From assembly GCA_009619095.1 (NCBI GenBank), contig WJOT01000115.1, positions 1 through 32,562 of the forward strand: a stretch of DNA of 32,562 nt, given 5' to 3'. Under the pieces are notes generated by a model that was not told the origin of the DNA, made no database searches, and saw nothing but the letters and a program-made list of their open reading frames with translations. The translations under genes were made by a program, and so were the position numbers. Source of the stretch: Clostridia bacterium (GTDB taxonomy: Bacteria; UBA6262; WVXT01). Each line of letters opens with the position of its first letter. The first letter of the stretch is position 1. Positions 1 through 22,506 of this stretch are shown piece after piece.

Positions 1-983
1 AGACAGCTTTTGTATATCGCATGGTTTAACATATGGAATATTCCACCAGCAATTCCAATAGGATTTCCTGTTCCAATACCAAGGACCATATATCCAACCT
101 GGCTCACAGCATGGTAAGATAATAGCTTCTTTAGATCGTGCTGGACTAAAGCCATCATTACCGCAGCAATTATCGTAAATGCGCCAACAATTAATAGTAG
201 TAACCCCATCGATTTATTCATCACAAAAAGATCCAAAGCAACTCTTGCCAAAAGGTAAATGCCCAACAGTTTATCCAGAGAAGCAGGCAGGAAAGCAGTC
301 ACTGGTATTGGTGCCTTCTCTGCACAATCAGGAATCCAGGTATGCAATGGCATTGCTCCCGCTTTGGCAAAGGAAGCAATAGTTAACGAGATAAATGCAA
401 TCGTTGGTAACATACCCGTTAAGTGAACGCTAATATTGTCCATCTGGAAAGAACCAGTCAAAAACCAGATAATGGCTATTCCCAAAATCATCAGACAATC
501 AGAGCCACCGACAATAATAAATGTCTTCTTCGCCGCTGCAGTAGCCTCTGGTCCACCTATGCCAATAAGTAGATAAAGGGTCAAGCCGAGAAATCCCCAA
601 AAAACCAGAAGGAGAATCAGATTGTTTGCTAAAATTGCCCCACAAGCACCACCAATTGTCCACAGAAGATAAGTATAGTATTCGTTTAAGCGCTCCTTGC
701 CCGCCATAAATTTTAGTGAATAGACAACAATTAAAACCCCAAAAAGACCGATAGCTAAAAGAATAAATCCACTAAGATTGTCGACTTTCAAAAGAAGCAG
801 ATCATTGTAAAACCATTCAACAGGCTTACGGAGAAAAATAACTATAGTGAAGTAGAAAGTTGCCAGTGAACCGCCTATTGCTAACAAATCTCTAAGCTTA
901 CTTAACTTTTTGGGAACTACCAAGCAGAGTAGTCCCACTATGAATGGAATAATAATAAGATAGTGCAACAAATTCATCGGCAT
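1..983 (-). CDS. Proton-translocating NuoL/NuoN/HyfB-like membrane subunit, N-terminal part (runs off window)
   Basis: Manual minus-strand translation from ATG at 983 gives an open hydrophobic frame, MPMNLLHYLIIIPFIVGLLCLVVPKK...FAKAGAMPLHTWIPDCAEKAPIPVTAFLPASLDKLLGIYLLAR...LVQHDLKKLLSYHAVSQVGYM, with antiporter-like hallmark motifs. No stop before the window edge. Confidence 0.88.
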   Translation of the reverse strand, partial: MPMNLLHYLIIIPFIVGLLCLVVPKKLSKLRDLLAIGGSLATFYFTIVIFLRKPVEWFYNDLLLLKVDNLSGFILLAIGLFGVLIVVYSLKFMAGKERLNEYYTYLLWTIGGACGAILANNLILLLVFWGFLGLTLYLLIGIGGPEATAAAKKTFIIVGGSDCLMILGIAIIWFLTGSFQMDNISVHLTGMLPTIAFISLTIASFAKAGAMPLHTWIPDCAEKAPIPVTAFLPASLDKLLGIYLLARVALDLFVMNKSMGLLLLIVGAFTIIAAVMMALVQHDLKKLLSYHAVSQVGYMVLGIGTGNPIGIAGGIFHMLNHAIYKSC

Positions 984-1083: not shown

Positions 1084-1166
1084 GGGCGACCATCCCGATG
1101 TATCGGGATAAATTGCGGTCGCCCCTACGCGACCAAAACCATTACGGGCATAAAGCCCTACACTAC
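1084..1166 (-). repeat. Two minus-strand GTAG-headed hairpins downstream of the hydrogenase large subunit gene
   Basis: Minus GTAG+GGGCGACC...GGTCGCCC (1128-1084) and GTAGTGTAG+GGC-TTTAT-GCC (1166-1146). Confidence 0.85.
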
Positions 1167-2384
1167 CATTTCTCTCTTAATTCTTAAGGTCTTTTCTTGT
1201 GATAACTTTATCAAGTCTTGACCGGTCAATCCTTTCTTTCCCGTCTTCTTATCCACAACTGCCACTCTTTCCGTGCAACAGTAACAGGGATCAACAGCAG
1301 CCAAGGTTATCGTGGCATCAGAAATAGTACCACCAACTACAGATTTCTGATTAGTGGGAACGTTCATATAACTGGGCGCCCTTATCTTATATCTCACCGG
1401 ACGGTTACTGCCGTCACTACGCACATAATGAAAGACTTCACCCCGCGGTGCCTCGTGGCGACCAATCCCTTCGCCAGGAGGAATCTCCTTAACCTTGGCA
1501 TCTATCTCCCCACCCACTACTTTTAACTTATCCAAACATCCTTTTATAATTTTCACTGACTCGTACATCTCCAATATGCGCACAACCGCCTTGGCAAAAA
1601 CATCCCCCTCTTCCTGAGTAATTACCTGCCAATCAACCAGAGGATAGGCGGCGTAAGGATCGTCTTTTCTGACATCTATAGCCACACCTGAAGCTCGAGC
1701 AGTGGGACCAAGCGCTCCATACTCGAATACATCCTCTTTTGTTAAGATTCCTACTCCTTTTAACCGGGCATGAATAACCGGATCGTCCATAACCACACCT
1801 TTAAACATATCGAGAACTGGTAATAATCCATCGACCATCTTCCAAATTTCCGGAATATCATCCGACTCAATGTCCCTTCTTACCCCACCAATCTTCATCA
1901 TGGCATAATGCTGGCGATTTCCAGTAATTTTCTCAAAAATATCCAGAACCGGCTCCCGGTATCTCCATGCCCACATCCATACTGTATTATAACCTATGAA
2001 ATGGCCAGCTAATCCCAGCCAGAGTAGGTGTGAATGAAGCCTTTCCAGCTCACCAATAATGCTTCGAATGTATAGTGCGCGTTCAGGCACCTTAATATCA
2101 GCCAACTCTTCGACCGCATTTACAGAGGCAAAAGGATGTGATGTGGAACAGATACCACAAACACGCTCCACCAGAAATAATACCTGGTCGTAACTCTTTG
2201 ATTCAGCAATCTTCTCAATTCCCCGGTGATTATATCCCAGTTCTATCTCCAGCTCCAAAACTTTTTCACCTTCTACGAGGAGCTTGAAAAATTCCGGTTC
2301 TTCTTGTAAAGGATGGTATGGACCAATAGGAATAATTGTCTTAGCCACTAATCTCTCCTGAGAGGATACTTTCCTTCTGGCCAA
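1158..2384 (-). CDS. Group 4-type [NiFe] hydrogenase large subunit (EchE/HyfG/NuoD-like)
   Basis: Contains RVCGICSTSH (RxCGxCxxxH) and DPCYCC (DPCxxC), i.e. all four Ni-ligand cysteines. NuoD-like body. Confidence 0.93.
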   Translation of the reverse strand: MARRKVSSQERLVAKTIIPIGPYHPLQEEPEFFKLLVEGEKVLELEIELGYNHRGIEKIAESKSYDQVLFLVERVCGICSTSHPFASVNAVEELADIKVPERALYIRSIIGELERLHSHLLWLGLAGHFIGYNTVWMWAWRYREPVLDIFEKITGNRQHYAMMKIGGVRRDIESDDIPEIWKMVDGLLPVLDMFKGVVMDDPVIHARLKGVGILTKEDVFEYGALGPTARASGVAIDVRKDDPYAAYPLVDWQVITQEEGDVFAKAVVRILEMYESVKIIKGCLDKLKVVGGEIDAKVKEIPPGEGIGRHEAPRGEVFHYVRSDGSNRPVRYKIRAPSYMNVPTNQKSVVGGTISDATITLAAVDPCYCCTERVAVVDKKTGKKGLTGQDLIKLSQEKTLRIKREMVV

Positions 2385-2779
2385 TCCTCTGCCAGAAGTA
2401 GTCTTTTTAAATTTGGATGGTTCTTAAATCTAACTCCCAACAGTTCATAAATTTCTCGCTCGATCCACTCTGCTCCTTTTATAATCGGAGTTACAGATTC
2501 TATTTCTGGATTCTGTTTGTCAATTTTTGTTCGTAGAGTAATTATTTTCCCCTCAATATCAAACGAAAAATGGTATAATATTTCTATTGCGTTTCGGGTA
2601 TCAACTGCCGAGACAATGACAAAGCGAGCTCTCAATCTTCGGAAAATAAATTCAACTATTTCCTTTATATTTTCAGGTTTGAGATCGATATAGGCCCGCC
2701 GAGGAGATTTCTCAAAAATGTTAAGAATTTGCCAGGAAAATTTCTCTTTTATTTTTGCCAAAATTTCTTCTGCCATCAA
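2348..2779 (-). CDS. NuoC/EchD-like hydrogenase subunit (30 kDa subunit family)
   Basis: NuoC-like motif ERE(I)YELLGVRFKNHPNLKRLLLAEDWPEGKYPLRRD at the C-terminus. Confidence 0.88.
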   Translation of the reverse strand: MMAEEILAKIKEKFSWQILNIFEKSPRRAYIDLKPENIKEIVEFIFRRLRARFVIVSAVDTRNAIEILYHFSFDIEGKIITLRTKIDKQNPEIESVTPIIKGAEWIEREIYELLGVRFKNHPNLKRLLLAEDWPEGKYPLRRD

Positions 2780-2780
2780 A

Positions 2781-3203
2781 TTAACCCTTTTTTAATGCCT
2801 TAATCAGTTTAACTACTCCCATAATCATTGCTTCTGGTTTCGGTGGACAACCCGGGATATATGCGTGAACAGGAACAAGTCCATCAAAAGGTCCAGCCAT
2901 GTTATAAGAATCCCGAAACATTGTCATCGAACAAGCACAAGCTCCAACTGCTACCACCAAACAAGGTTTAGGAGCCTGCTCATAAAGCCTCTTTAACCTC
3001 ACTGCTGCTTTGTGAGAAATTGCACCGGTAGCCAATATAACATCTGCATGGCGAATACTTCCCACCAAAAGAATACCAAACCTTTCCAGATCAAACCTGG
3101 GGGTTAACGCATCGAGAATTTCTATATCGCAGTTATTGCAAGAAGCAGCAGCAAAATGGAACACCCATATAGATTTAGTTAATGCCTTCATCTTGATATC
3201 CAT
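2781..3203 (-). CDS. [NiFe] hydrogenase small subunit, NuoB/EchC/HyfI-like
   Basis: CNNCDIEILDAL...GACACSM...IPGCPPKPEA pattern of NuoB-type proteins. The ORF track start (3224) probably over-extends; internal MDIKMKAL start used. Confidence 0.88.
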   Translation of the reverse strand: MDIKMKALTKSIWVFHFAAASCNNCDIEILDALTPRFDLERFGILLVGSIRHADVILATGAISHKAAVRLKRLYEQAPKPCLVVAVGACACSMTMFRDSYNMAGPFDGLVPVHAYIPGCPPKPEAMIMGVVKLIKALKKG

Positions 3204-3204
3204 C

Positions 3205-4134
3205 TCATAGCCCCAGAAATGCAAGGATTACTCCGATAACTGCCAGAATTGTCATCGGTCCCCAGAAAAATTTTATAGCCTGGTCGATACGAAGTCGGGG
3301 GTTAGTGTTACGCATTAAAATAATAATCACTAAAAGCAAGACATATTTCAATATGCCCCATAAAATATGCCAGCCGGAAAATACAATACCGCCCATAAAC
3401 ATAATTACTAAAAACATTGGCACTACAAACAACATCATCCAGCGGGTAAGTTTATAGAGAGCTAAAGGGGCTCCAGAATATTCGATATAAGGACCAGCTA
3501 TTATCTCTGTTTCTGCCTCAGGAATGTCGAAAGGCACTAAAGCCAGTTTTGCCTGCATACAGATTATAGCCACAACAAAAGCAATAAGTCCAGACCAGGA
3601 ATTGAGGAAGATACTATTTGCCCATTGATATTGGAGCAAATCGCCAAGCCTGATTATGCCTTGCGCTTTAATAACCGGAGTGAAAATAGCCAGAATAAAA
3701 GGTAACTCGTATGCTAAAATCATTTTCATTTCCCGGGAAGCGCCTAAAGAAGCTAAAGGATTTCCCGAAGCAAAACCACCTATAATTACACCTATAGATG
3801 GAATTGCCAATAAATAGATAACCACAATTAAATCTCCCAGAAAAGTTTGCCCTGGTGAAATCATCACCAGCCAAAGTAGGGTGGAGACAATAGTCACTGC
3901 AGCCAATCCAAAAAGGGGAGAAAGAAGAAAGGTCAACTTCGCCCCAGCTTGAGGGACAATCGTCTCTTTACCCAAAAGCTTTACAAAATCGTAAAGCGGC
4001 TGAAGTAGCGGCGGACCTACTCGCCACTGCACCCGGGCAGTGACCTTTCGGTCAATCCAACTAACTAACATGCCTACCAATGCTGTAAACAAAAATCCAG
4101 GAAATACTATGAAGTAAAATATAGTCTTTGCCAC
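3205..4134 (-). CDS. NuoH/EchB/HyfC-like membrane subunit
   Basis: Multi-helix protein with DRKVTARVQWRVGPP and PFDIPEAETEIIAGPYIEYSG motifs of the NuoH family. Confidence 0.92.
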   Translation of the reverse strand: MAKTIFYFIVFPGFLFTALVGMLVSWIDRKVTARVQWRVGPPLLQPLYDFVKLLGKETIVPQAGAKLTFLLSPLFGLAAVTIVSTLLWLVMISPGQTFLGDLIVVIYLLAIPSIGVIIGGFASGNPLASLGASREMKMILAYELPFILAIFTPVIKAQGIIRLGDLLQYQWANSIFLNSWSGLIAFVVAIICMQAKLALVPFDIPEAETEIIAGPYIEYSGAPLALYKLTRWMMLFVVPMFLVIMFMGGIVFSGWHILWGILKYVLLLVIIILMRNTNPRLRIDQAIKFFWGPMTILAVIGVILAFLGL

Positions 4135-4136
4135 TC

Positions 4137-4616
4137 TTACTCTCTTTCCCAGGGAATATAATGAACTATTAGATTCTTTCCCACAGCAAAATAATTCTTT
4201 TTCGGGTCTTGTTCAATCTCTTCGTATCTGATTATCTTCTCCGGACAACTCTCTACGCAAAGAGGAGGCTTCCCATCTGCCCGTTGTAAACAATAATCGC
4301 AACTGGAAACGAGGTAGGGAATAAGTTCCGGATAGATTGTTCCAAAAGGGCAAGCCACCACGCAAGAGTTACACCCCACGCAGCGCATATTATATCTTTT
4401 CAATATTCCGTCCTTCTGTTTTTCCAGCGCCTCTTGCGGGCAAACTTTAACACAAGGAGCATCCTCACAGTGCCTGCAGATAAGAGAAAAACTGGCTAAC
4501 TCTCTTAAATCGGTTACTCCATTATTGTCAGGATGATAGAAATAACTGCAGGAGACCGTGCAGTCTTTACATTTAGAACAGGCTTCCAAATCAATAAATA
4601 ACTTCTTCATAGCCAA
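4137..4616 (-). CDS. Poly-[4Fe-4S] ferredoxin-type electron-transfer subunit (HycB/CooF-like)
   Basis: Repeated CxxCxxCxxxC motifs: CSKCKDCTVSC, CRHCEDAPCVKVCP, CVGCNSCVVACP, CDYC. Confidence 0.9.
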   Translation of the reverse strand: MAMKKLFIDLEACSKCKDCTVSCSYFYHPDNNGVTDLRELASFSLICRHCEDAPCVKVCPQEALEKQKDGILKRYNMRCVGCNSCVVACPFGTIYPELIPYLVSSCDYCLQRADGKPPLCVESCPEKIIRYEEIEQDPKKNYFAVGKNLIVHYIPWERE

Positions 4617-5425
4617 ATATCCGGGATATCTTTTATCAGATCGTATTTGAAAACTGGACCATCTTTACAAACATAATATTTACCTAATGCACAGTGTCCA
4701 CATTTGCCCAGACCGCAAGACATATTCTTTTCCATAGAAAGGTAGATACTCTCGGGTTTATAGCCCAAATCTATCAACTTAAACGTGCCGAATTTCATCA
4801 TAATCGGAGGTCCACAAACCACAGCCACAGAATTTTTCAAGTCCATCTTGACTTTGTCCAGAAGGACAGTCACCAGTCCCTCAGTTTCTTCCCACCCAGG
4901 AGCTGCTTTATCTACACTTCTTAAGATTTCTAATTTCTTTTTTTTCTTCCATTCAGGAAAGGCATCTTTATAAACTATATCTTCAGGAGTCTTCGCTCCA
5001 TAACAGAGAACTATCCGTCTGAACTTATCTACATTTTTAAGGAGAGTAAGAAGTAAAGACCTCAGGGGTGCCATACCTACTCCTCCGCCAAGAACCAGAA
5101 CTTCCTTATTATAAAAATCATCGAAAGGATATCCGCGACCATAAGGGCCTCGAATGCCTACAATTTCTCCCTCCCTCATCTCATGCAATTTGCCAGTTAG
5201 AAGTCCAACCTTCATGATGGTTATCTCTATTTTTTCAGTCTGGTAGGGAGAAGAGGAGGGAGTAAATGGTGCCTCGCCAATACCAGGTATAGTTAGTTGA
5301 ACAAATTGACCAGTTTCGAATTTGATTTTTCGGCTGGGCTTCAACACGAATGTCTTTATGTTAGAAGTCTCGTCAATAATCTTCTCAATCTTAGCTTCAA
5401 CTGGTAAATAGGGATTCTCCGTCAT
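4607..5425 (-). CDS. FAD/NAD(P)-binding oxidoreductase, sulfhydrogenase gamma (HydG)-like
   Basis: Ferredoxin-NADP reductase fold motifs (GQFVQLTIPG, GIRGPYGRGYP, VLGGGVGMAPLRSLL) and C-terminal 2Fe-2S CGLGKCGHC...YVCKDGPVF. Confidence 0.88.
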   Translation of the reverse strand: MTENPYLPVEAKIEKIIDETSNIKTFVLKPSRKIKFETGQFVQLTIPGIGEAPFTPSSSPYQTEKIEITIMKVGLLTGKLHEMREGEIVGIRGPYGRGYPFDDFYNKEVLVLGGGVGMAPLRSLLLTLLKNVDKFRRIVLCYGAKTPEDIVYKDAFPEWKKKKKLEILRSVDKAAPGWEETEGLVTVLLDKVKMDLKNSVAVVCGPPIMMKFGTFKLIDLGYKPESIYLSMEKNMSCGLGKCGHCALGKYYVCKDGPVFKYDLIKDIPDIWL

Positions 5426-6439
5426 TCACTTTTCCTCTTTTTCACTTAATTTTTTTATCACTTCTCTTTTATCTATTTTTCCCTGGCAGGCTTCCACACA
5501 GCGACCACAACCGGTACAGGCTACAATTCCAAAATTTTCTGGCCTGTACTCATACTTGCACAAATATCTATTCCTCAGCCTTTCATATAATTTTGCTCGG
5601 GGATTGACATCCGCAGCGACCCGGGCAAAGCCGGTATGCTGGCAGGAATCCCAAAACTTAACTTTGGGAAATTTGCCCTCGTCTTTTGTGTCCACAAGGA
5701 GAAAACAGTAACAGGAAGGGCAGATGTTAGTGCAGGCTCCACATTCCACGCAGGTTTTGGTTACCTCTTCCCACACAGGTGAAGCATACTCATCTTTTAC
5801 AATAACAGAGAAGGGTCTTTTGGTCTTAAATTCCCTGTTTACCTCTACTACTCTCTTCTTCGCCTCTTTTCTCTTCCTTTCTCTCTTTTCCATTAAATCA
5901 GAAGTTGCTTCCTTCAAATCTTCTCTTATAGAAGCGATAAAGCTCTCCCCTTTGGGGGAACCCACTTCCAGCAAAAACCCGTTATCTATGGGAGAAACGT
6001 TGAGGTCAAAGCCTTCTTCTGGAAAAGGATTATTGTCCAGCAAAGTACAAAAACATGTATCTTTTGGTTGGTAACAATCGGAGGAAATAATAAGAGTATT
6101 CTCTCTTCTCTCTCTATAAAAAGGGTCTACAAAGTCTCCTTCCAGGAAAATCTTATCTAAAACTTGAAGCGCCTTAAGGTCACAGTTCTTAACTCCCAGA
6201 ACTATCGTCTTCTCTGGCTGGGAAGTAACTGCTGTCACCTTTTCCTGTGGTAAAGAGAAGAATATCTTTAAAGGTTGAACTGCTCGATAAGTGCCATAAG
6301 TGGTGTTATTAACATTTTCTGGAGATAAGAGCTGATAGGATAGTTCGTCATAAACCTCTTGTGGAGCGTAAATACGATAAGTCTTTGAAATCTGTTCCAG
6401 AAATTTTTCCCAATCTACTTTATTTATATAGAATTTCAT
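5426..6439 (-). CDS. 4Fe-4S protein, sulfhydrogenase beta (HydB)/AsrA-like
   Basis: CVECGACTNICPSCYCF and CTGCGRCVEACQGKID clusters; LGVKNCDLKALQVLD motif. The track start at 6481 is TTG and would place a palindromic operator in the coding region; ATG at 6439 (MKFYINKVDW) preferred. Confidence 0.85.
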   Translation of the reverse strand: MKFYINKVDWEKFLEQISKTYRIYAPQEVYDELSYQLLSPENVNNTTYGTYRAVQPLKIFFSLPQEKVTAVTSQPEKTIVLGVKNCDLKALQVLDKIFLEGDFVDPFYRERRENTLIISSDCYQPKDTCFCTLLDNNPFPEEGFDLNVSPIDNGFLLEVGSPKGESFIASIREDLKEATSDLMEKRERKRKEAKKRVVEVNREFKTKRPFSVIVKDEYASPVWEEVTKTCVECGACTNICPSCYCFLLVDTKDEGKFPKVKFWDSCQHTGFARVAADVNPRAKLYERLRNRYLCKYEYRPENFGIVACTGCGRCVEACQGKIDKREVIKKLSEKEEK

Positions 6440-6458: not shown

Positions 6459-6476
6459 TTGTGAAATCTTTCACAA
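6459..6476. promoter_or_regulatory. Rex-type operator TTGTGAAATCTTTCACAA
   Basis: Perfect 8-bp inverted repeat TTGTGAAA-TC-TTTCACAA, 20 bp upstream of the preferred hydrogenase-operon ATG, with the rex gene adjacent. Confidence 0.8.
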
Positions 6477-6517
6477 ACCAAGCTAAAAAATTTAAAACCT
6501 AACTATTTTAAGTTGAG

Positions 6518-6547
6518 ATTATACAAAATGAATCAAGCAAGCGTCAA
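6518..6547 (-). promoter_or_regulatory. Predicted sigma70-type promoter of the hydrogenase operon
   Basis: Minus strand: -35 TTGACG (6547-6542), 18-bp spacer, -10 TATAAT (6523-6518). Confidence 0.7.
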
Positions 6548-6628: not shown

Positions 6629-7246
6629 TTATTTGGTCAAGAAACAACTCAAGCTCTGTAGTTCGGTAGACAAGTCTATATTTTTTAACTTCAACCCTTC
6701 TGGTACAGCCAATTTATAAGGAGCAAAGTTTAAGATTGCTTTCACCCCTGAACGCATTAAAATGTCAGCAGCCTGCTGGGCGGAAAAATAAGGTACAGCA
6801 ATGATGGCAATTTTTATCTTTTTCTCCTTTATTACTTTTGGCATCTGTTTTATATCCCGAATCTCCACTCCCAGCCAGGTCTTTCCTATCTTTGTTGGTG
6901 AGTTATCAAAGATGACTGAAATTTTGAATCCATGTTGGCGGAATCCAGGATAGGCAGAGAGTGCCCTACCCAAATTTCCTGCTCCTACCAATGCCACCTG
7001 CCATTTCCTGTCCAATCCCAAGGTCTTATCTAGTCCCTGGGAAAGCTTCTTTACATTGTACCCCTTTCCTCTCTCACCAAATTGCCCTACATAGGAAAGG
7101 TCACGGCGGATTTGAGAAGGCTTAAAATGCATCTTCTTCCCTAACTTTTCAGAAGTCACCAAAAGTTTCCCTTTCTTAAGCAGAGACTTTACATAACGGC
7201 GATAAATGCTTAAACGGTTGACTGTTATCTCAGGTAGCTTTTCCAT
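6629..7246 (-). CDS. rex: Redox-sensing transcriptional repressor Rex
   Basis: N-terminal winged-helix (SEKLGKKMHFKPSQIRRDLSYVGQFGERGKGYNV) and Rossmann VALVGAGNLGRAL; typical Rex length. Confidence 0.95.
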   Translation of the reverse strand: MEKLPEITVNRLSIYRRYVKSLLKKGKLLVTSEKLGKKMHFKPSQIRRDLSYVGQFGERGKGYNVKKLSQGLDKTLGLDRKWQVALVGAGNLGRALSAYPGFRQHGFKISVIFDNSPTKIGKTWLGVEIRDIKQMPKVIKEKKIKIAIIAVPYFSAQQAADILMRSGVKAILNFAPYKLAVPEGLKLKNIDLSTELQSLSCFLTK

Positions 7247-8057: not shown

Positions 8058-8664
8058 TCTCTATTGCCTTTTTCCAGTCATCTATAGTATTAATATTGAA
8101 AAATGAGATACCCTGGGAATCGAAAATTGCAATCTCTTCCCTTTCTAAATACTCTACCTCAACATAAGGGAAAAAAGAGACCATTTTCTTCTCCCCTTTT
8201 CCCAACACTTTTTCTATACTGTGTAAGCACCTTGACGAATAGAATGCGTGTAATGGCTCCAGAAATTTTCCCGTGCGAGGAATCAATATATCGGTTCGGG
8301 AAATTCTCCTGGCCATATAGGATATCAGTTCTCTCTGAAGAAAGGGCATATCACACCCTACCAGAAAGTTAAACTTCGCCGGAGAGTAGAGAAGACCACT
8401 ATATAGACCTCGCAGTGGGCATTTCGGTCCAACCACATCGCTGACCAATTTCACAGAACGTCCAAAACTATACATAAGTTTTTCTAAATAATCTAATTTA
8501 TCTTCATCAACGACTATCAGAATATCCTTAAACAGAGAAAGAAGCGATAGGGTAATTCTCCTGATTAGAATCTCTCCTCCCACTAAAAGCTCAGACTTTA
8601 AGTGAGGAAGCCTTAAGTTTTCTCCTCCTGCCAATACTATTGCTACAAAATCAGTCATTCTCAT
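7981..8664 (-). CDS. mobA: Molybdenum cofactor guanylyltransferase (MobA-like)
   Basis: FVAIVLAGGENLRLPHLKSELLVGG (degenerate GT-A nucleotidyltransferase signature), FLVGCDMPFL. Track start 8787 lies inside the upstream CDS; ATGA-overlap start at 8664 (or ATG 8658) preferred. Confidence 0.82.
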   Translation of the reverse strand: MRMTDFVAIVLAGGENLRLPHLKSELLVGGEILIRRITLSLLSLFKDILIVVDEDKLDYLEKLMYSFGRSVKLVSDVVGPKCPLRGLYSGLLYSPAKFNFLVGCDMPFLQRELISYMARRISRTDILIPRTGKFLEPLHAFYSSRCLHSIEKVLGKGEKKMVSFFPYVEVEYLEREEIAIFDSQGISFFNINTIDDWKKAIEIEKKRGKQQYGREYSQVANITELQR

Positions 8665-9710
8665 TTCACCTGAATCTCGCCGGCAACCTTTAATATATCG
8701 ATTTCCCCGTAGCAAACCTTCCAGCAACGTCCACAACCAACACATCCCAGAAGGCCTTGATTCTCCTGGGAATATAATAATTTGCAAAAGAACCTTCTCT
8801 TAATTCTATCTCGCTTGTTTTCTCCGGGGTTAGCTCCACTGGCCATCCTGGTAAAGCCTGAAAAATTACAAGAATCCCATATCCTCATCCTTTCGCCGAC
8901 TTCTATATTTCTATCTGCCTTATCCATGATACTGAAACAAGTACAGGTGGGACATATGTAATTACATCCTCCGCAATCGAGGCAACGATTTCCTATCTCT
9001 TCCCAGAATTCATTCTCTATGACCGCACCGCTAAATCCATCTTCTAATAATCTACTGGCAACTTTCTTTAATTCTATTCTCTTATGAGAAAATTTTCCTT
9101 CCAATTTCTCTTCCAAAATCTCTTTCTCTCTCCTATCACCAGGGCTAGCCGGTGAGAAGAAATCCGAGTAAGTGGAGACTAATTTCTCTCCCTGGGAGGA
9201 ACCTACCTCCACCAGGTAAGAGTTCTCCAATGGGGCCAGTTGAAGGTCATAACCTCGCCTGGCAAACGGGCCGCTTCCACAAAGAAAGCAGAAACAGCTC
9301 TCTTCCGGTTCAAGACAGTTAATACCGACAAGAAGAGTATTTCTGCGGCGAATCCAATAGTAGATATCTTCGTATCCACCATGCTCGCTGGAAAAGAACC
9401 TATCAGAAAACTCTAAAGCTGCCAGATCGCAAGGACGAATCCCAAATAATATCCTTCTCTTTTTCTCTGCCTCCTCTTTGAAAGAAAAAACTCCCTTTCG
9501 GAACTGGAACAGCTCATCAGTCTGGGGAAAGAAGAACTGTTTGGGCGAGGAAAGAGGATTACCCTCTAAGAAACTCACTTCACTAATATCTTTTATCTGT
9601 TCAAAAGTCGCTCCTCCTAATCTTTGAACGGGAGCTATAAGTTCTGCCTCTCTTTTGAGCTTATCCAGGAATTTTAAAAGACTTTCTCTGTCTATGGTCA
9701 AAAGAATCAA
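8661..9710 (-). CDS. 4Fe-4S protein, HydB/AsrA-like, probable formate dehydrogenase partner subunit
   Basis: CLDCGGCNYICPTCTCF and CVGCGRCWKVCYGEID; LFGIRPCDLAALEF. Paralogous to the 5426-6439 product. ATGA-type overlap with fdhA. Confidence 0.85.
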   Translation of the reverse strand: MILLTIDRESLLKFLDKLKREAELIAPVQRLGGATFEQIKDISEVSFLEGNPLSSPKQFFFPQTDELFQFRKGVFSFKEEAEKKRRILFGIRPCDLAALEFSDRFFSSEHGGYEDIYYWIRRRNTLLVGINCLEPEESCFCFLCGSGPFARRGYDLQLAPLENSYLVEVGSSQGEKLVSTYSDFFSPASPGDRREKEILEEKLEGKFSHKRIELKKVASRLLEDGFSGAVIENEFWEEIGNRCLDCGGCNYICPTCTCFSIMDKADRNIEVGERMRIWDSCNFSGFTRMASGANPGENKRDRIKRRFFCKLLYSQENQGLLGCVGCGRCWKVCYGEIDILKVAGEIQVK

Positions 9711-11776
9711 TTATTTCCTCCCCATAGCTCGATCTTGACCGCACATACTTTATATTCGGGTATCTTTGCCTGAGGGTCCAGACTATCCAGAGTCAACCTG
9801 TTAGCTGCCGCCTCTGAAAAATGAAAAGGAATGAAAATGGTCTTTTCCCCTACCTTTTCAGTAAGAAAAGCTTTTGCAATTATCTCTCCTCTGCGAGAGA
9901 CTACTTTTATCAATTGTCTATTTCTTATGCCCAGAAATTGACCATCCCGGGGATTCATCTCCACAAAAGCCTGGGGAACTTCTCTCTGAAGAGTGAAGGT
10001 GAGCCTGCTCATAGTTCCAGTATGCCAGTGCTGATAAATCCTCCCTGTGGTGAGGAGGAAAGGATACTCCTCATCAGTAGTCTCCTGAGCAGGTTTATAT
10101 TCTACTGGAGTAAAAAGTCCCTTGCCTCTTTTAAATCCTCCTTTGTGCAAATAAGGCGTTCCAGGATGGCTGTCTTCAGGACAGGGCCACTGCAACCCTT
10201 CAATCTTATCCAGTCTGGAATAGTTTACACCGCCATATATGGGTGTAAGGGAAGCTATCTCCTCCATAATTTGAGCAGGGTGAGAATACTCCATAGGATA
10301 TCCCAACTCTTTAGCCAGCTGGCAGATTATTTTCCAATCAGATTGACTCTCTCCTACAGGTTCTACGACCTTTCTTACTCTCTGGATTCTTCTCTCCGTG
10401 CTCGTAAAAGTACCATCTTTTTCGGCAAAAGAGCTCCCCGGAAGGATTACATCGGCCCACCTGGCTGTTTCGGTAAAGAAGATGTCCTGCACTACTAAGA
10501 ACTCCAAAGACTCCATAAACTTTTCTACCCGTCCAATATTCGGCTCACTGAGCAATGGATTCTCTCCCATTATATACAGAGCTTGAATGGGATTCCCCTC
10601 GATAAACATCTCTGTCTCTGTAAGCCCAACATCAGTGGGAAGTTTCACATCCCAGCACTGTTCAAATTTTTTTCTACTATCTCTATCTTCAACTTTCTGG
10701 TAGCCAGTTAAAAAATCTGGCAATGCACCCATATCGCAGGCTCCCTGAACGTTATTCTGGCCCCTCAAAGGATTTACTCCAGTGGAAGGTCGGCCAACAT
10801 TACCTGTGACCATAGAAAGATTGGCCAGGGAAAGAACATTGTCAGTACCCGTGACATGCTGGGTAATTCCCATCGCGTAGAATATCATTGCTTGCCGTGA
10901 GCTACCATAAATTCGGGCTGTCTCCATTAGTTTCTTAGCCGGGATTCCAGTGATTTCCTCCACAAATTTGGGTGTATATTTTTTTACTATCTCTTTCATT
11001 GACAAGAAATTTTCTGTGTACTTATCGATGAAATCCAAATCCGCAAGACCTTCTTTTAAAATTACATGGATAAGTCCATTTATCCAGGCAACATCAGTCC
11101 CTGGTCGAGGTCGCAAATGGAGAGTAGCAAATTTGGCAAGATGAATGTTGCGGGGATCTACAAGGATAAGTTTTGCTCCTTTCAGGACTCGCCTTATTAT
11201 CCTGCCTCCTATTTCTGGATGTTGCTCAGTTGTGTTGGAACCAGTAACCAGAATAACTTCAGCTTTTTCTATCTCTTCAATGGAATTAGTCATTGCCCCA
11301 CTTCCAAAAGCTCTCGCCAGTCCCACCACTGTGGAAGAATGGCAAAGACGAGCACAGTGGTCGATATTGTTGGTTTGAAGAACAGCTCGAGCCAATTTCA
11401 TCATAAGATAGTTCTCTTCATTGGTGCACTTCGCTGAACTGAGAAGACCTAAAGCAACACTTCCCTTTTTCTCTCGAATATCTTTGAACTTCGATGCAAT
11501 AAATTTGAGAGCCTTTCTCCAGGAGACTTCCCGGAAATCGTCTAAAGAGCCGGCACTCTTTCTATATCCCCTACTTCTTTCTCTCATTAGAGGTTTTACC
11601 AGACGGAGAGGACTACTAACGTATTCATAACAGTTCCATCCCTTAACACAGAGTCTCCCCTGGTTGACAGGACTATCAGAGGAAGGTAATGTCTCTACAA
11701 TTTTCCCCTCTCTTTCTCGTAGAAGGAGAGAACATCCACATCCACACCAGGGACAGATAGTAAGTATAGTATTCAT
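9707..11776 (-). CDS. fdhA: Molybdopterin-dependent formate dehydrogenase catalytic subunit (Cys type)
   Basis: N-terminal CPWCGCGCSLLL...GRLCVKG 4Fe-4S site, HCARLCHSSTVVGLARAFGSGAMTNS active-site region, C-terminal molydopterin dinucleotide-binding domain; fdhD and mobA downstream. Confidence 0.9.
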   Translation of the reverse strand: MNTILTICPWCGCGCSLLLREREGKIVETLPSSDSPVNQGRLCVKGWNCYEYVSSPLRLVKPLMRERSRGYRKSAGSLDDFREVSWRKALKFIASKFKDIREKKGSVALGLLSSAKCTNEENYLMMKLARAVLQTNNIDHCARLCHSSTVVGLARAFGSGAMTNSIEEIEKAEVILVTGSNTTEQHPEIGGRIIRRVLKGAKLILVDPRNIHLAKFATLHLRPRPGTDVAWINGLIHVILKEGLADLDFIDKYTENFLSMKEIVKKYTPKFVEEITGIPAKKLMETARIYGSSRQAMIFYAMGITQHVTGTDNVLSLANLSMVTGNVGRPSTGVNPLRGQNNVQGACDMGALPDFLTGYQKVEDRDSRKKFEQCWDVKLPTDVGLTETEMFIEGNPIQALYIMGENPLLSEPNIGRVEKFMESLEFLVVQDIFFTETARWADVILPGSSFAEKDGTFTSTERRIQRVRKVVEPVGESQSDWKIICQLAKELGYPMEYSHPAQIMEEIASLTPIYGGVNYSRLDKIEGLQWPCPEDSHPGTPYLHKGGFKRGKGLFTPVEYKPAQETTDEEYPFLLTTGRIYQHWHTGTMSRLTFTLQREVPQAFVEMNPRDGQFLGIRNRQLIKVVSRRGEIIAKAFLTEKVGEKTIFIPFHFSEAAANRLTLDSLDPQAKIPEYKVCAVKIELWGGNN

Positions 11777-18666: not shown

Positions 18667-21600
18667 TTATATCAGGGGCTCCATCTCTAAAGCGGGGTGC
18701 TTCACCTTCTGCAAATAGGAGAGAAGTTCTTCTGTTGTAGTGGCTACTGTCTCATCAGCAATTTTATCTATCAGGTCAGGGTCACCCTCTTCTTCGCACC
18801 TTTTCTTAAATTTGTCTCCCAGTGCTTCTTTGAGCTCTTTGGTCATCCATACTATGCGTTTTATCCCTCCATCGGCAGAGATAAACTTCCTGCTCACGAT
18901 ATACAGCCTTCCGATTCCCATAAAGCCTGGTGTCTGCGCTCCTCCACCTACAGAGCCAGCCAGGGTGCTGAAAGTCATTCCTATAGGAGTCATACCAGCA
19001 AATTCCCTATTTACAATCATAAAACCATTCGTCTCAGGAAGTATAGCTATGATACACTCGAAGCATCCGCAACTTGTTTCAGGGCAACTTATTATGGAAT
19101 AACCGTGGAAGCGGTCTAAAGTTTTGTTCGATTTTTGATAGATGAATTCATTCACTCCTTTCCACTCACCCCTTACCGGGTCAAGACATTCTCCTTTCTT
19201 CACCGGCTGATTGGGTCCTGTGGGATTCAGTTCAAAAGAAGCCTTAGCATCAATGTAACTATAAGCGCCACATAATCCTAACCTCTCCGGTTTAACTATA
19301 CAGAGGTGATTGGGAGCAAACGATTGGCAATTTTTGGCTACGATCCAATTCACTAAATAATTATGTGTCCCCGGAACACTAAAATTGTAGACTTCCTTCT
19401 CATTATACCTTACTTTTTCTACGCTTTTTACCTTTTCAAATGTTATCTCACTCTCTACCCATTTTAATAGCTCTTGATATAATCGGTCATTTTCATCTAT
19501 TTTGCCTTTTAGGCTATGCAATAATAATTTCAGCTTCCCTTTTGAAGCCCGGCACTTTATTTTAGTCCAGGCCTCGATGCTCTTATAATCAACGGCCAAT
19601 TTTGTAATTTCAATCTTTTTCTTATATTTCTCAAGCAGTTCCTTTAATATTTTCCCGCATTTAAGCGGCACAGTATCCGTACGCACCACATGATTTTTAT
19701 CAAAAGAAGTTTTCATCCCATCCATCTTTTTTCTCTTTCTGGGATGATTTGACGAAATAACTTCTCGGAAACGGATATAGTCACCAAAACTTCTAGTTCC
19801 AACTTGATATCCACGTTTTATCTTGGTAATGTATGTGGAAATCCCTAATTTCTTAAGAAGTAAAAATATATGTTGAGCGCCTTTGTAAGTTCCGGTAGTA
19901 ATGAGGATATGTGTATCGGTCACATGCCCGTCTCCATCAAAGAAACCCTTGATGAAGGCACTTGTCAATTTCGGAGACAACTGGGAAATCTTCTCTCCAG
20001 TCCAGCTTTCGCTTTTTTCACCTCTCTTTCTCTTATGGCCTATTCCTAATCCCAGCATTAGCTTACCGATCAAAGGATTATAAACTAACGATACATTGAT
20101 AGGCTTTCTTCCTATAATCGTAAGGCCCTTTGCAGACGATTTAAGAGGTCTGACAACATATGTCTTAGGTAAAACTCCAAAAAGAGATTTCACTATTTGA
20201 CCAAACTTATCAATGAGAGCTTTTTCGGAATTGGTGAACTGAACATAGGTGCCTTTTCCTCTATGCCTGACGTGACCGTCGGATGCTATCAAACCAGCGA
20301 GATACATTATATCTTCATCCAGAATTAGCCTTTTAAGTTCGCACCCTGGAGCCTTGGGCACTCCGAACTTGTTGATTCTTTGCTTGGCTATCTCCCAATC
20401 CCATCCTATCTCTTGACAAATAGACCTAATCTCATCAATAGTCAAACGATAAAAACAAATTCGATAAGCGGTTGTTTTGGGAAAGTAAAAAGCATAGTAA
20501 AGCTTGCGCCACTCAATCCCTAACTCTCTCGCTGCGTTACCGAATTTACCATATCTTTCTAATATAGCGCTTTTTAGTTGTTGTAAAAACTGGTTGTCGA
20601 AGACCTTAACTTCATCGGGTAATAAATCTATTAAATAAAGTGACTTATCCTTATCTTGATTTCTTCCGTTTAAATCGGCTGTTCTTGCAGATAAAAGTCG
20701 GTCGCCTTTCCTTAAAGCACCTGCCTCGGTCCAGATTAAACCCTCAGGCTTATCCACCAGAACCTTATGGTTTGCAGTTAATCTGATTAAATTGTTATTG
20801 GTGGTCATTATATGTGCCAACTTCCTGGGAGCTGGGTTAACAAAAAGCTCTCTAATGGGTTTTGTCGTAAGATGTGGGTTTTCGAAGGATAATACCTCAA
20901 CGTCTCGCTCTTCTGCCATGGTCTCGATGACATTCTCTATTTTGTCAAATGAACCATCGGCAAGAACTATCGACTCGCCTTTGGGAACACATAAAGTACA
21001 GGAGTAGAACGTATCCACGCTCTCATCGGTCATTCCTGCCATACGCTCATCGCGTTCCTCATAAGCTTTTTTTGCCTGGGCATGATATTTTTCCACATCT
21101 TCCTGTCGAGTATAAATGGTAACCTGAGCCTTGTCCACAATTGCCCTGAAGGTATCGTGAAGGCGTGCGTGAATAATTACTCCAAAATGGCGAATCTTAA
21201 AGCCCTTCTTCTTCGCGTCCTTACTGATTCTTAACCAGCACATGTCTCTTTGTCCCATATGGAATATCCCCATAGCCTCGTTTAAAAAAGTATGAATCTG
21301 CCTCTCCAATATGGGCTCAAAATCCTTCTGCATCTTTCTGCCAGCTACTTCGACATAGATTCCCAAAGGCATTGCTCCACCCTCTTCGGCTTCGTCCACT
21401 TCCGGCCCAATTACTTCTATTTTCTCATCTTCCACTTTATCCAAGTCTCTACTGGTCACATATTCAAAAGCAGTGGAATATTTTCCTCCAAACTGGACAT
21501 ACATCTGTTCTTTTCTTACAGATTCCCCTTCAAAAGCAGCAGAATAGGAAACGGGAATGGGAATTTCCGCTACCTTCACCTTAACACCCCTTACTTGAAT

Positions 21601-22506
21601 GCAGGTAGGAACCAATTTCTTATAATCAAGTTCTTTCACTAAATGTTCATAGGTGCAGATACCACTGGGCTTTACCTCAGGAATATCAGTATCGGCAATT
21701 ATAGGAAAACCCATGTTGATAGCTCCTGCGCCAGTAGCATACTTTACATCATCCAGCTCGCCTAAAGTCAAACCAAAGGCAAATGTTCTATTCTGACAGT
21801 ATTTGAGACACTTCAGTGCTTCTCCCTTCTTAAGGCCACCAAAGGTGAGAGCTGCCCTGATAGCCCAGTTGGCCGCATAGATTGCAGTTATAGTATCGCG
21901 TCCGTAAGGTACTATATATGTCTCCCAACCCATCTGGACATTCTCTTCTTTAAGTTGGTCGATTATACTCTTGCCATTAGAACTAGAACCAACAAAACAT
22001 ATAATACTTCTCTTCTGAAATTCCCTGACTATCTCCACCGCCGCTTTGTTATCCTTAGCCGCACCTAATATAACAGCAAAACCGGGCATTCTTCCATCTA
22101 CCAGTTGTATCCCATAACTTCTCATCCAGGTATCGGTATAGAAACCCACACAATCGGGTTGGGGCTCTTTACCATACAGGTATCTCAGGGCAACAATAAT
22201 TTCTTCTCCGAAAAGGGTGGCTATACCAGAATCGAGAGCATCGCCAAGATAGGGGAGCCAGAGAGACTGGCTCGGCTCCTCTCTCAAAAGTGACTTTGCT
22301 TCTTTCAACACCGGTATCATATCTCCCAAATTCTTTACTTCTATTCCCAAAAGTGCATAGACCATGGGAAGGAAGTAAGCTGTCTCGGGAAACTCAACTT
22401 TCTGGTCTTTCCCTTTTTCCTTAATTGCCTTATTTAAAAATTCCTCTGCTTCTCCGACAATCTTTCGCGCTCCCCTAATTGCTGCTGCCATAACTATTTT
22501 CGACAT
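18667..22506 (-). CDS. acsB: Acetyl-CoA synthase (bacterial AcsB) precursor, interrupted by an intein
   Basis: Extein DESVDTFYSCTL^CQSFAPNHLCIVKPERLGLCGA and PETSCGCFECI = A-cluster ligands. N-extein 505 aa (20992-22506) plus C-extein 220 aa (18667-19329) = 725-aa mature protein. SD GGAGG before ATG. Confidence 0.96.
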   Translation of the reverse strand: MSKIVMAAAIRGARKIVGEAEEFLNKAIKEKGKDQKVEFPETAYFLPMVYALLGIEVKNLGDMIPVLKEAKSLLREEPSQSLWLPYLGDALDSGIATLFGEEIIVALRYLYGKEPQPDCVGFYTDTWMRSYGIQLVDGRMPGFAVILGAAKDNKAAVEIVREFQKRSIICFVGSSSNGKSIIDQLKEENVQMGWETYIVPYGRDTITAIYAANWAIRAALTFGGLKKGEALKCLKYCQNRTFAFGLTLGELDDVKYATGAGAINMGFPIIADTDIPEVKPSGICTYEHLVKELDYKKLVPTCIQVRGVKVKVAEIPIPVSYSAAFEGESVRKEQMYVQFGGKYSTAFEYVTSRDLDKVEDEKIEVIGPEVDEAEEGGAMPLGIYVEVAGRKMQKDFEPILERQIHTFLNEAMGIFHMGQRDMCWLRISKDAKKKGFKIRHFGVIIHARLHDTFRAIVDKAQVTIYTRQEDVEKYHAQAKKAYEERDERMAGMTDESVDTFYSCTLCVPKGESIVLADGSFDKIENVIETMAEERDVEVLSFENPHLTTKPIRELFVNPAPRKLAHIMTTNNNLIRLTANHKVLVDKPEGLIWTEAGALRKGDRLLSARTADLNGRNQDKDKSLYLIDLLPDEVKVFDNQFLQQLKSAILERYGKFGNAARELGIEWRKLYYAFYFPKTTAYRICFYRLTIDEIRSICQEIGWDWEIAKQRINKFGVPKAPGCELKRLILDEDIMYLAGLIASDGHVRHRGKGTYVQFTNSEKALIDKFGQIVKSLFGVLPKTYVVRPLKSSAKGLTIIGRKPINVSLVYNPLIGKLMLGLGIGHKRKRGEKSESWTGEKISQLSPKLTSAFIKGFFDGDGHVTDTHILITTGTYKGAQHIFLLLKKLGISTYITKIKRGYQVGTRSFGDYIRFREVISSNHPRKRKKMDGMKTSFDKNHVVRTDTVPLKCGKILKELLEKYKKKIEITKLAVDYKSIEAWTKIKCRASKGKLKLLLHSLKGKIDENDRLYQELLKWVESEITFEKVKSVEKVRYNEKEVYNFSVPGTHNYLVNWIVAKNCQSFAPNHLCIVKPERLGLCGAYSYIDAKASFELNPTGPNQPVKKGECLDPVRGEWKGVNEFIYQKSNKTLDRFHGYSIISCPETSCGCFECIIAILPETNGFMIVNREFAGMTPIGMTFSTLAGSVGGGAQTPGFMGIGRLYIVSRKFISADGGIKRIVWMTKELKEALGDKFKKRCEEEGDPDLIDKIADETVATTTEELLSYLQKVKHPALEMEPLI
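19330..20991 (-). other. Intein with LAGLIDADG homing endonuclease, ~554 aa, inside AcsB
   Basis: Starts Cys (CVPKGESIVLADG, block A); block B IRLTANHKVLV; LAGLIDADG motifs YLAGLIASDGHV and FIKGFFDGDGHV; block F VYNFSVPGTHNYLVNWI; ends VAKN followed by Cys+1. Excision restores contiguous FYSCTLCQSFAPNH. Confidence 0.95.

Follow-up and report, generated by a model that had tools for sequence, protein, structure and literature searches.

An 18-bp palindrome at positions 6459–6476 is, with a probability of about 0.9, an operator for the redox-sensing repressor Rex encoded just upstream, and it stands in front of an operon for a group-4-type [NiFe] hydrogenase (Table 1). The window analyzed here, 32,562 nucleotides long, is the entire contig C82 of a 1.99-Mb metagenome-assembled genome (G000; 86% complete). 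Rex is a known NADH-sensing repressor, and its use on hydrogenases is already known. An initial annotation had proposed a Rex operator ahead of this operon; at the sequence level, the exact site, its conservation, the identity of the rex gene and the co-occurrence of gene and site all support the proposal.

The perfect inverted repeat recorded in that annotation holds: TTGTGAAATCTTTCACAA shows no mismatch to the Rex operator consensus TTGTGAA-N4-TTCACAA, which is an 18-bp palindrome (PMC5355995, PMC13077300). It has 8-bp arms and a 2-bp centre (7+4+7 in Rex notation), and its minus-strand reading is TTGTGAAAGATTTCACAA (6476–6459). No other exact match occurs in the window, where matches with three mismatches are at chance level (3 found vs 2.35 expected). 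From the base composition of the window, the exact motif is expected 0.014 times per 1.99-Mb genome. The genome-wide scan suggested in the annotation returned three exact matches, which count as two independent loci because one locus is represented twice, by near-identical copies on contigs C129 and C43. A reversed control pattern gave no match with up to one mismatch in the same genome. Allowing up to two mismatches, the control itself gave five matches, and two-mismatch sites in this genome were therefore dropped as candidate targets.

Table 1 Predicted features of the operator region and the hydrogenase operon.
Feature	Position	Strand	Basis or remark
rex, redox-sensing repressor	6629..7246	-	Pfam, NCBIfam, alignment; sole copy found in assembly
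-35 box TTGACG	6542..6547	-	TTGACA in three congeners
-10 box TATAAT	6518..6523	-	18-nt spacer; invariant in four species
Predicted transcription start	6511	-	Inferred: 7 nt past -10 box
Rex operator (predicted) TTGTGAAATCTTTCACAA	6459..6476	.	Palindrome; conservation in relatives
First operon gene, HydB/AsrA-like iron-sulphur subunit (Fer4_22)	5426..6439	-	Start ATG 6439
HydG/AsrB-like FAD/NAD(P)-binding, [2Fe-2S] subunit	4607..5425	-	Domain match
4Fe-4S dicluster electron-transfer subunit (ferredoxin-like)	4137..4616	-	Domain match
NuoH/EchB-like membrane subunit	3205..4134	-	Domain match
NuoB-like small subunit	2781..3224	-	Domain match
NuoC-like subunit	2348..2779	-	Domain match
[NiFe] group-4-type large subunit	1158..2384	-	CGIC and CYCC motifs both present
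Proton-pumping NuoL/Mrp-type antiporter subunit	1..977	-	Truncated by contig end

On the minus strand, the rex stop codon at 6629 is followed after 81 nt by the -35 box TTGACG, then by an 18-nt spacer, TATAAT, the predicted start at ~6511, the operator and the ATG at 6439. The promoter (6547..6518) scores 11/12, the highest value in 4 kb, which agrees with the annotated promoter and with rex lying directly upstream of it. Relative to the predicted start, the operator would span ~+36 to +53, close to the ~35–50 bp given previously. The ATG at 6439 and a TTG codon at 6481 were likewise found where the annotation had placed them, and the open reading frame called from that TTG does appear to be over-extended. 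Were the TTG the true start, the palindrome would be coding sequence inside the first gene, a reading that seems barely conceivable. Three of four species have the frame open, with a similar translation, as follows from the conservation of the DNA itself, but in congener G002 a 7-nt insertion and a stop codon interrupt it, and for orthologues from other families the alignment begins where ATG 6439 lies. Protein conservation across the operator, which the annotation had named as evidence against its reading, is thus replaced in G002 by a broken frame, and for this reason ATG 6439 is the better start.

By sequence, the gene upstream of the promoter encodes a canonical Rex. Its N-terminal winged helix matches PF06971 with 59.8 bits (cut-off 27), its C-terminal Rossmann domain matches PF02629 (CoA_binding) with 77.2 bits (cut-off 22.3), and the NCBIfam Rex model NF003995 gives 256 bits (cut-off 126); the nucleotide loop GAGNLG is present. 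The Rex proteins of congeners G001 and G002 are 98% identical to this one. We also aligned the protein to solved Rex proteins. The residues of Thermotoga maritima Rex that contact DNA are known from Rex–operator structures (PMC8836258), and Arg47, Arg59, Gly60, Gln45 and Tyr63 correspond in this alignment to T. maritima Arg48, Arg60, Gly61, Gln46 and Tyr64. One contact is changed, Arg48 of the recognition helix taking the place of T. maritima Lys49. Rex operators (ROP) of Streptomyces, Staphylococcus, Bacillus and Thermotoga share the same 18-bp palindrome, and the contact residues are the same (PMC8836258); unlike those cases, the present one comes from an uncultured candidate lineage, and its operator would lie at ~+36 rather than overlapping the promoter. 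The encoded Rex is likely the reader of the operator.

Conservation among relatives points in the same direction. Both exact sites, that of the hydrogenase operon and a second one ahead of panE, are kept in all three congeners; the hydrogenase site also recurs with a single mismatch in two genomes of a sister family that belongs to the same taxonomic order, so that the operator of this operon is conserved in 5/5 relatives. Across the four congeneric sequences, all 14 arm positions are invariant and the operator centre varies; the -10 box is invariant at 6/6 positions, the -35 box at 5/6 (one base differs, in one of four species), the promoter spacer at 10/18 and the DNA between operator and ATG at 4 of 26 columns. 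As judged from these alignments, such conservation of arms and boxes marks an operator rather than a coding or RNA element. Two additional one-mismatch sites, in G002 and G003, are asymmetric and occur in one genome each, and were taken as chance matches.

Beyond the genus, scanning genome contigs by HydB alignment yielded 80 loci in Aerophobetes, Omnitrophota, Elusimicrobia and others, the closest of which include Ca. Aerophobetes (45%); in most of them the genes after HydB are syntenic with the hydrogenase operon. A Rex-type site lies within 300 bp upstream in 21 of these 80 orthologous loci, whereas 200 palindromes with shuffled arms produced a mean of 0.12 ± 0.37 and never more than 2 at the same loci. 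The rex gene is present in 17/21 site-bearing genomes vs 13/29 others (Fisher p = 0.01), a contrast that is understated because the group of 29 had been deliberately weighted towards loci where rex is adjacent. The four site-bearing genomes in which no rex was seen may be incomplete or may use another regulator. Upstream of rex itself, weak sites with two mismatches were all that was found, in 4 of 10 loci where rex adjoins the operon.

Since the repeat would be transcribed, it might instead work at the RNA level, through a hairpin in the 5′ leader, which we regard as hardly credible. An 8-bp stem could form (-6.7 kcal/mol for the element), but the stability of the leader does not clearly exceed that of shuffled sequences (z = -1.62). 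The commonest change in other phyla, TTGTGAT..TTCACAA, is one-sided and uncompensated and breaks the pairing, as does the likewise one-sided and uncompensated change of the outer A in the sister family; moreover, homologous sites that begin at -5 would lie partly outside the transcript.

A further reading, that the palindrome is a site for a CRP/FNR-family regulator, arises from the fact that TGTGA-N6-TCACA is contained in the Rex consensus, and we consider it very improbable. The 16-mer core does fit the CRP consensus, CRP-like palindromes exist in the genus, and one PF00027 protein is found in each of the congeners G001 and G003, with a 226-aa CRP-type regulator in G003. Against this, PF00027 was found neither in G000 (86% complete) nor in the 96%-complete G002, both of which carry the operator. 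The CRP gene of G000 may be missing from its assembly, given that CRP-like sites are present there (C121), and the argument therefore rests mainly on G002 and on the sequence of the sites. The CRP-like sites of the genus occur in tandem at a 23-bp distance and read TGTGA-N6-TCACA without the inner AA..TT, which every congeneric copy of the Rex-type operator retains. Three site-bearing genomes do have PF00027 and no rex, but their PF00027 frames exceed 600 aa and, at that length, are not CRP-like.

Tandem CRP-like palindromes with a spacing of exactly 23 bp lie at L165:1901-1939 (G000:C121), G003:C54:27736-27774 and G001:C96:17-55. Those of G000 and G003 are upstream of a gene for a PorV-like outer-membrane protein, and in G003 they also adjoin the gene of the CRP-type regulator; the G001 copy, on another contig, is 450 bp from the PF00027 gene. 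Other pairs with the 23-bp spacing are G000:C44:7599/7622, G001:C99:703/726 and G003:C82:14092/14115.

The operon downstream of the putative Rex site matches its earlier assignment to group-4 hydrogenases, as confirmed by both CxxC motifs, the complex-I-like subunits and the Mrp/Mbh module of a congener. Hydrogenase domains in the window comprise PF00374, PF00346, PF01058 and PF00146; the large subunit has two CxxC Ni-binding motifs and is accompanied by complex-I-like NuoB/C/D/H subunits. Of the Mrp-type module, the window holds only the first antiporter subunit, at which the contig stops. The operon can be followed further in congener G001, where MbhD/E, MnhB, 4L-like, MnhD-like, MnhE, MnhG and a 4Fe-4S subunit precede HycI, HypA, NikR and a CbiM-type metal importer, so that both an Mrp-type ion-pumping module and maturation genes are present.

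Several other features of the window were noted. Between the large-subunit and antiporter genes, a 36-bp unit (TTTGTTTATTTGTAGTGTAGCCCTTTATGGGCGTAT) is present in two perfect copies at 991–1065; the corresponding gap in G001 is just ~90 nt. A second HydB-like gene (8661–9710) overlaps the formate dehydrogenase alpha gene (9707–11776), which suggests a formate dehydrogenase whose electron-entry subunit is of the same type; in G002, this second HydB-like frame holds one TGA. At 18667–22506, an intein interrupts the acetyl-CoA synthase alpha/beta subunit (TIGR01445 at residues 506–584, TIGR01443 at 1038–1060).

The second locus with an exact motif lies ahead of panE, at L006:6782-6799 and L005:4322-4339 on C129 and C43, respectively. 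These contigs are near-duplicates (~90% identity in panE), which points to mixed strains or to redundant binning. The gene order in G001 is panE, fhs, metV-like, lpd, lipB and lipA, then metF, and the operon belongs to the Wood–Ljungdahl methyl branch. Its operator is kept in all four congeneric genomes, 35–39 nt after the -10 box of a TTGACA-18-TAAAAT promoter, vs 41–43 nt at the hydrogenase operon. As far as promoters can be predicted from sequence, the downstream placement of the operator is conserved at both target operons across the genus.

We then compared operator placement at 27 loci, namely the 21 site-bearing loci, the window and five close relatives. A promoter scoring at least 11/12 occurs no more than 110 bp upstream of the site in 18 of the 27, against 0.7% in shuffled sequence; promoters in other phyla are consensus matches, and placement was measured from predicted starts. 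On this scale, the first operator base falls at ~-5 to +11 in 12 loci and at +20 to +38 in 15, with none between the groups. One member of the former group, L105, has a promoter of just 7/12 and is to be discounted; the window and the panE operon of all four congeneric genomes belong to the latter. The two groups are an observation and not a test, because the loci are not phylogenetically independent. Tentatively, and at slightly under even odds, they may represent two classes of site, one overlapping the start and one just beyond the polymerase footprint, the latter acting in this genus as a conserved block of elongation or promoter escape at both the hydrogenase and the Wood–Ljungdahl operons. 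At L014 of the distant genome G032 (first gene 44% identical), two TTGACA promoters follow one another and each carries an imperfect Rex-type site, placed at the -10 box or immediately behind it.

From these sequence features we infer the following switch. When NADH/NAD+ is low, a Rex dimer would occupy the operator, ~36–53 bp into the transcribed region, and would stop polymerase coming from the TTGACG/TATAAT promoter, either as a roadblock or by blocking promoter escape. As NADH rises, Rex would bind it and leave the DNA, allowing transcription of the operon for the membrane-bound, Mrp/Mbh-like group-4 [NiFe] hydrogenase with its NAD(P)H-type flavin module, and excess reductant may then be discharged as H2. 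The same switch, in near-identical geometry, would control the panE-fhs-metV-lpd-lipB-lipA operon. A roadblock would call for an operator wholly past the polymerase footprint (beyond ~+20), and the distance of the operator from the predicted start, ~+36 here, is what suggests this step. With the operator near +36, simple occlusion would be impossible if transcription starts as predicted, and a block of elongation or escape is then the best inference; we hold this step to be somewhat probable.

The same Rex operator could instead block initiation, if the true start were closer to it or if Rex acted by looping or by contacting polymerase. Such an arrangement has precedent in about half of the homologous loci, where the operator at -5 to +11 overlaps the start region and occlusion would suffice. 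For the present locus it appears unlikely, though it deserves serious consideration: the stretch from the -10 box to the ATG holds no other minus-strand promoter of at least 9/12, TATAAT is unchanged in four species and the -35 box nearly so while the spacer drifts, and a search of the window for a nearby second operator, as looping might use, found none.

Earlier publications describe both Ech-type hydrogenases under Rex control and Rex sites located past the transcription start. In Caldicellulosiruptor bescii, control of an Ech-type hydrogenase is supported by gel shifts (PMC6391272), and for the CO-dependent Ni-CODH/ECH operons of Parageobacillus and Calderihabitans it was predicted (PMC13077300, PMC7306483); Rex control of clostridial Wood–Ljungdahl enzymes is mentioned as quoted in PMC7306483. 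As in these three organisms, a Rex site here precedes a membrane-bound group-4 [NiFe] hydrogenase operon, but unlike their Ech operons, the present one has HydB/HydG-like subunits of the NAD(P)H type at its start and includes an Mrp/Mbh-like module. Rex footprints in Streptomyces avermitilis extend from +108 to +135 at wblE and from -3 to +25 at cydA1, and inhibition of polymerase progress was proposed for both genes (PMC5355995). These footprints lie downstream of the start, as predicted here; they are single cases from one species, whereas the placement described above is conserved throughout a genus at two operons and turns up again in other phyla. The conserved two-class operator placement would thus be somewhat new. 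Our literature search found no paper on regulation experiments for these uncultured lineages.

Knowledge of Rex itself is unchanged by the finding. What it extends is the range of a known redox switch, which would now include Aerophobetes-, Omnitrophota- and Elusimicrobia-like genomes, and the recurring placement at +20 to +38 would make Rex a handy case for asking why some repressors act after, and not at, the promoter. For the uncultured lineages themselves, it offers a testable regulatory connection that would tie NADH level to H2 metabolism and CO2 fixation.
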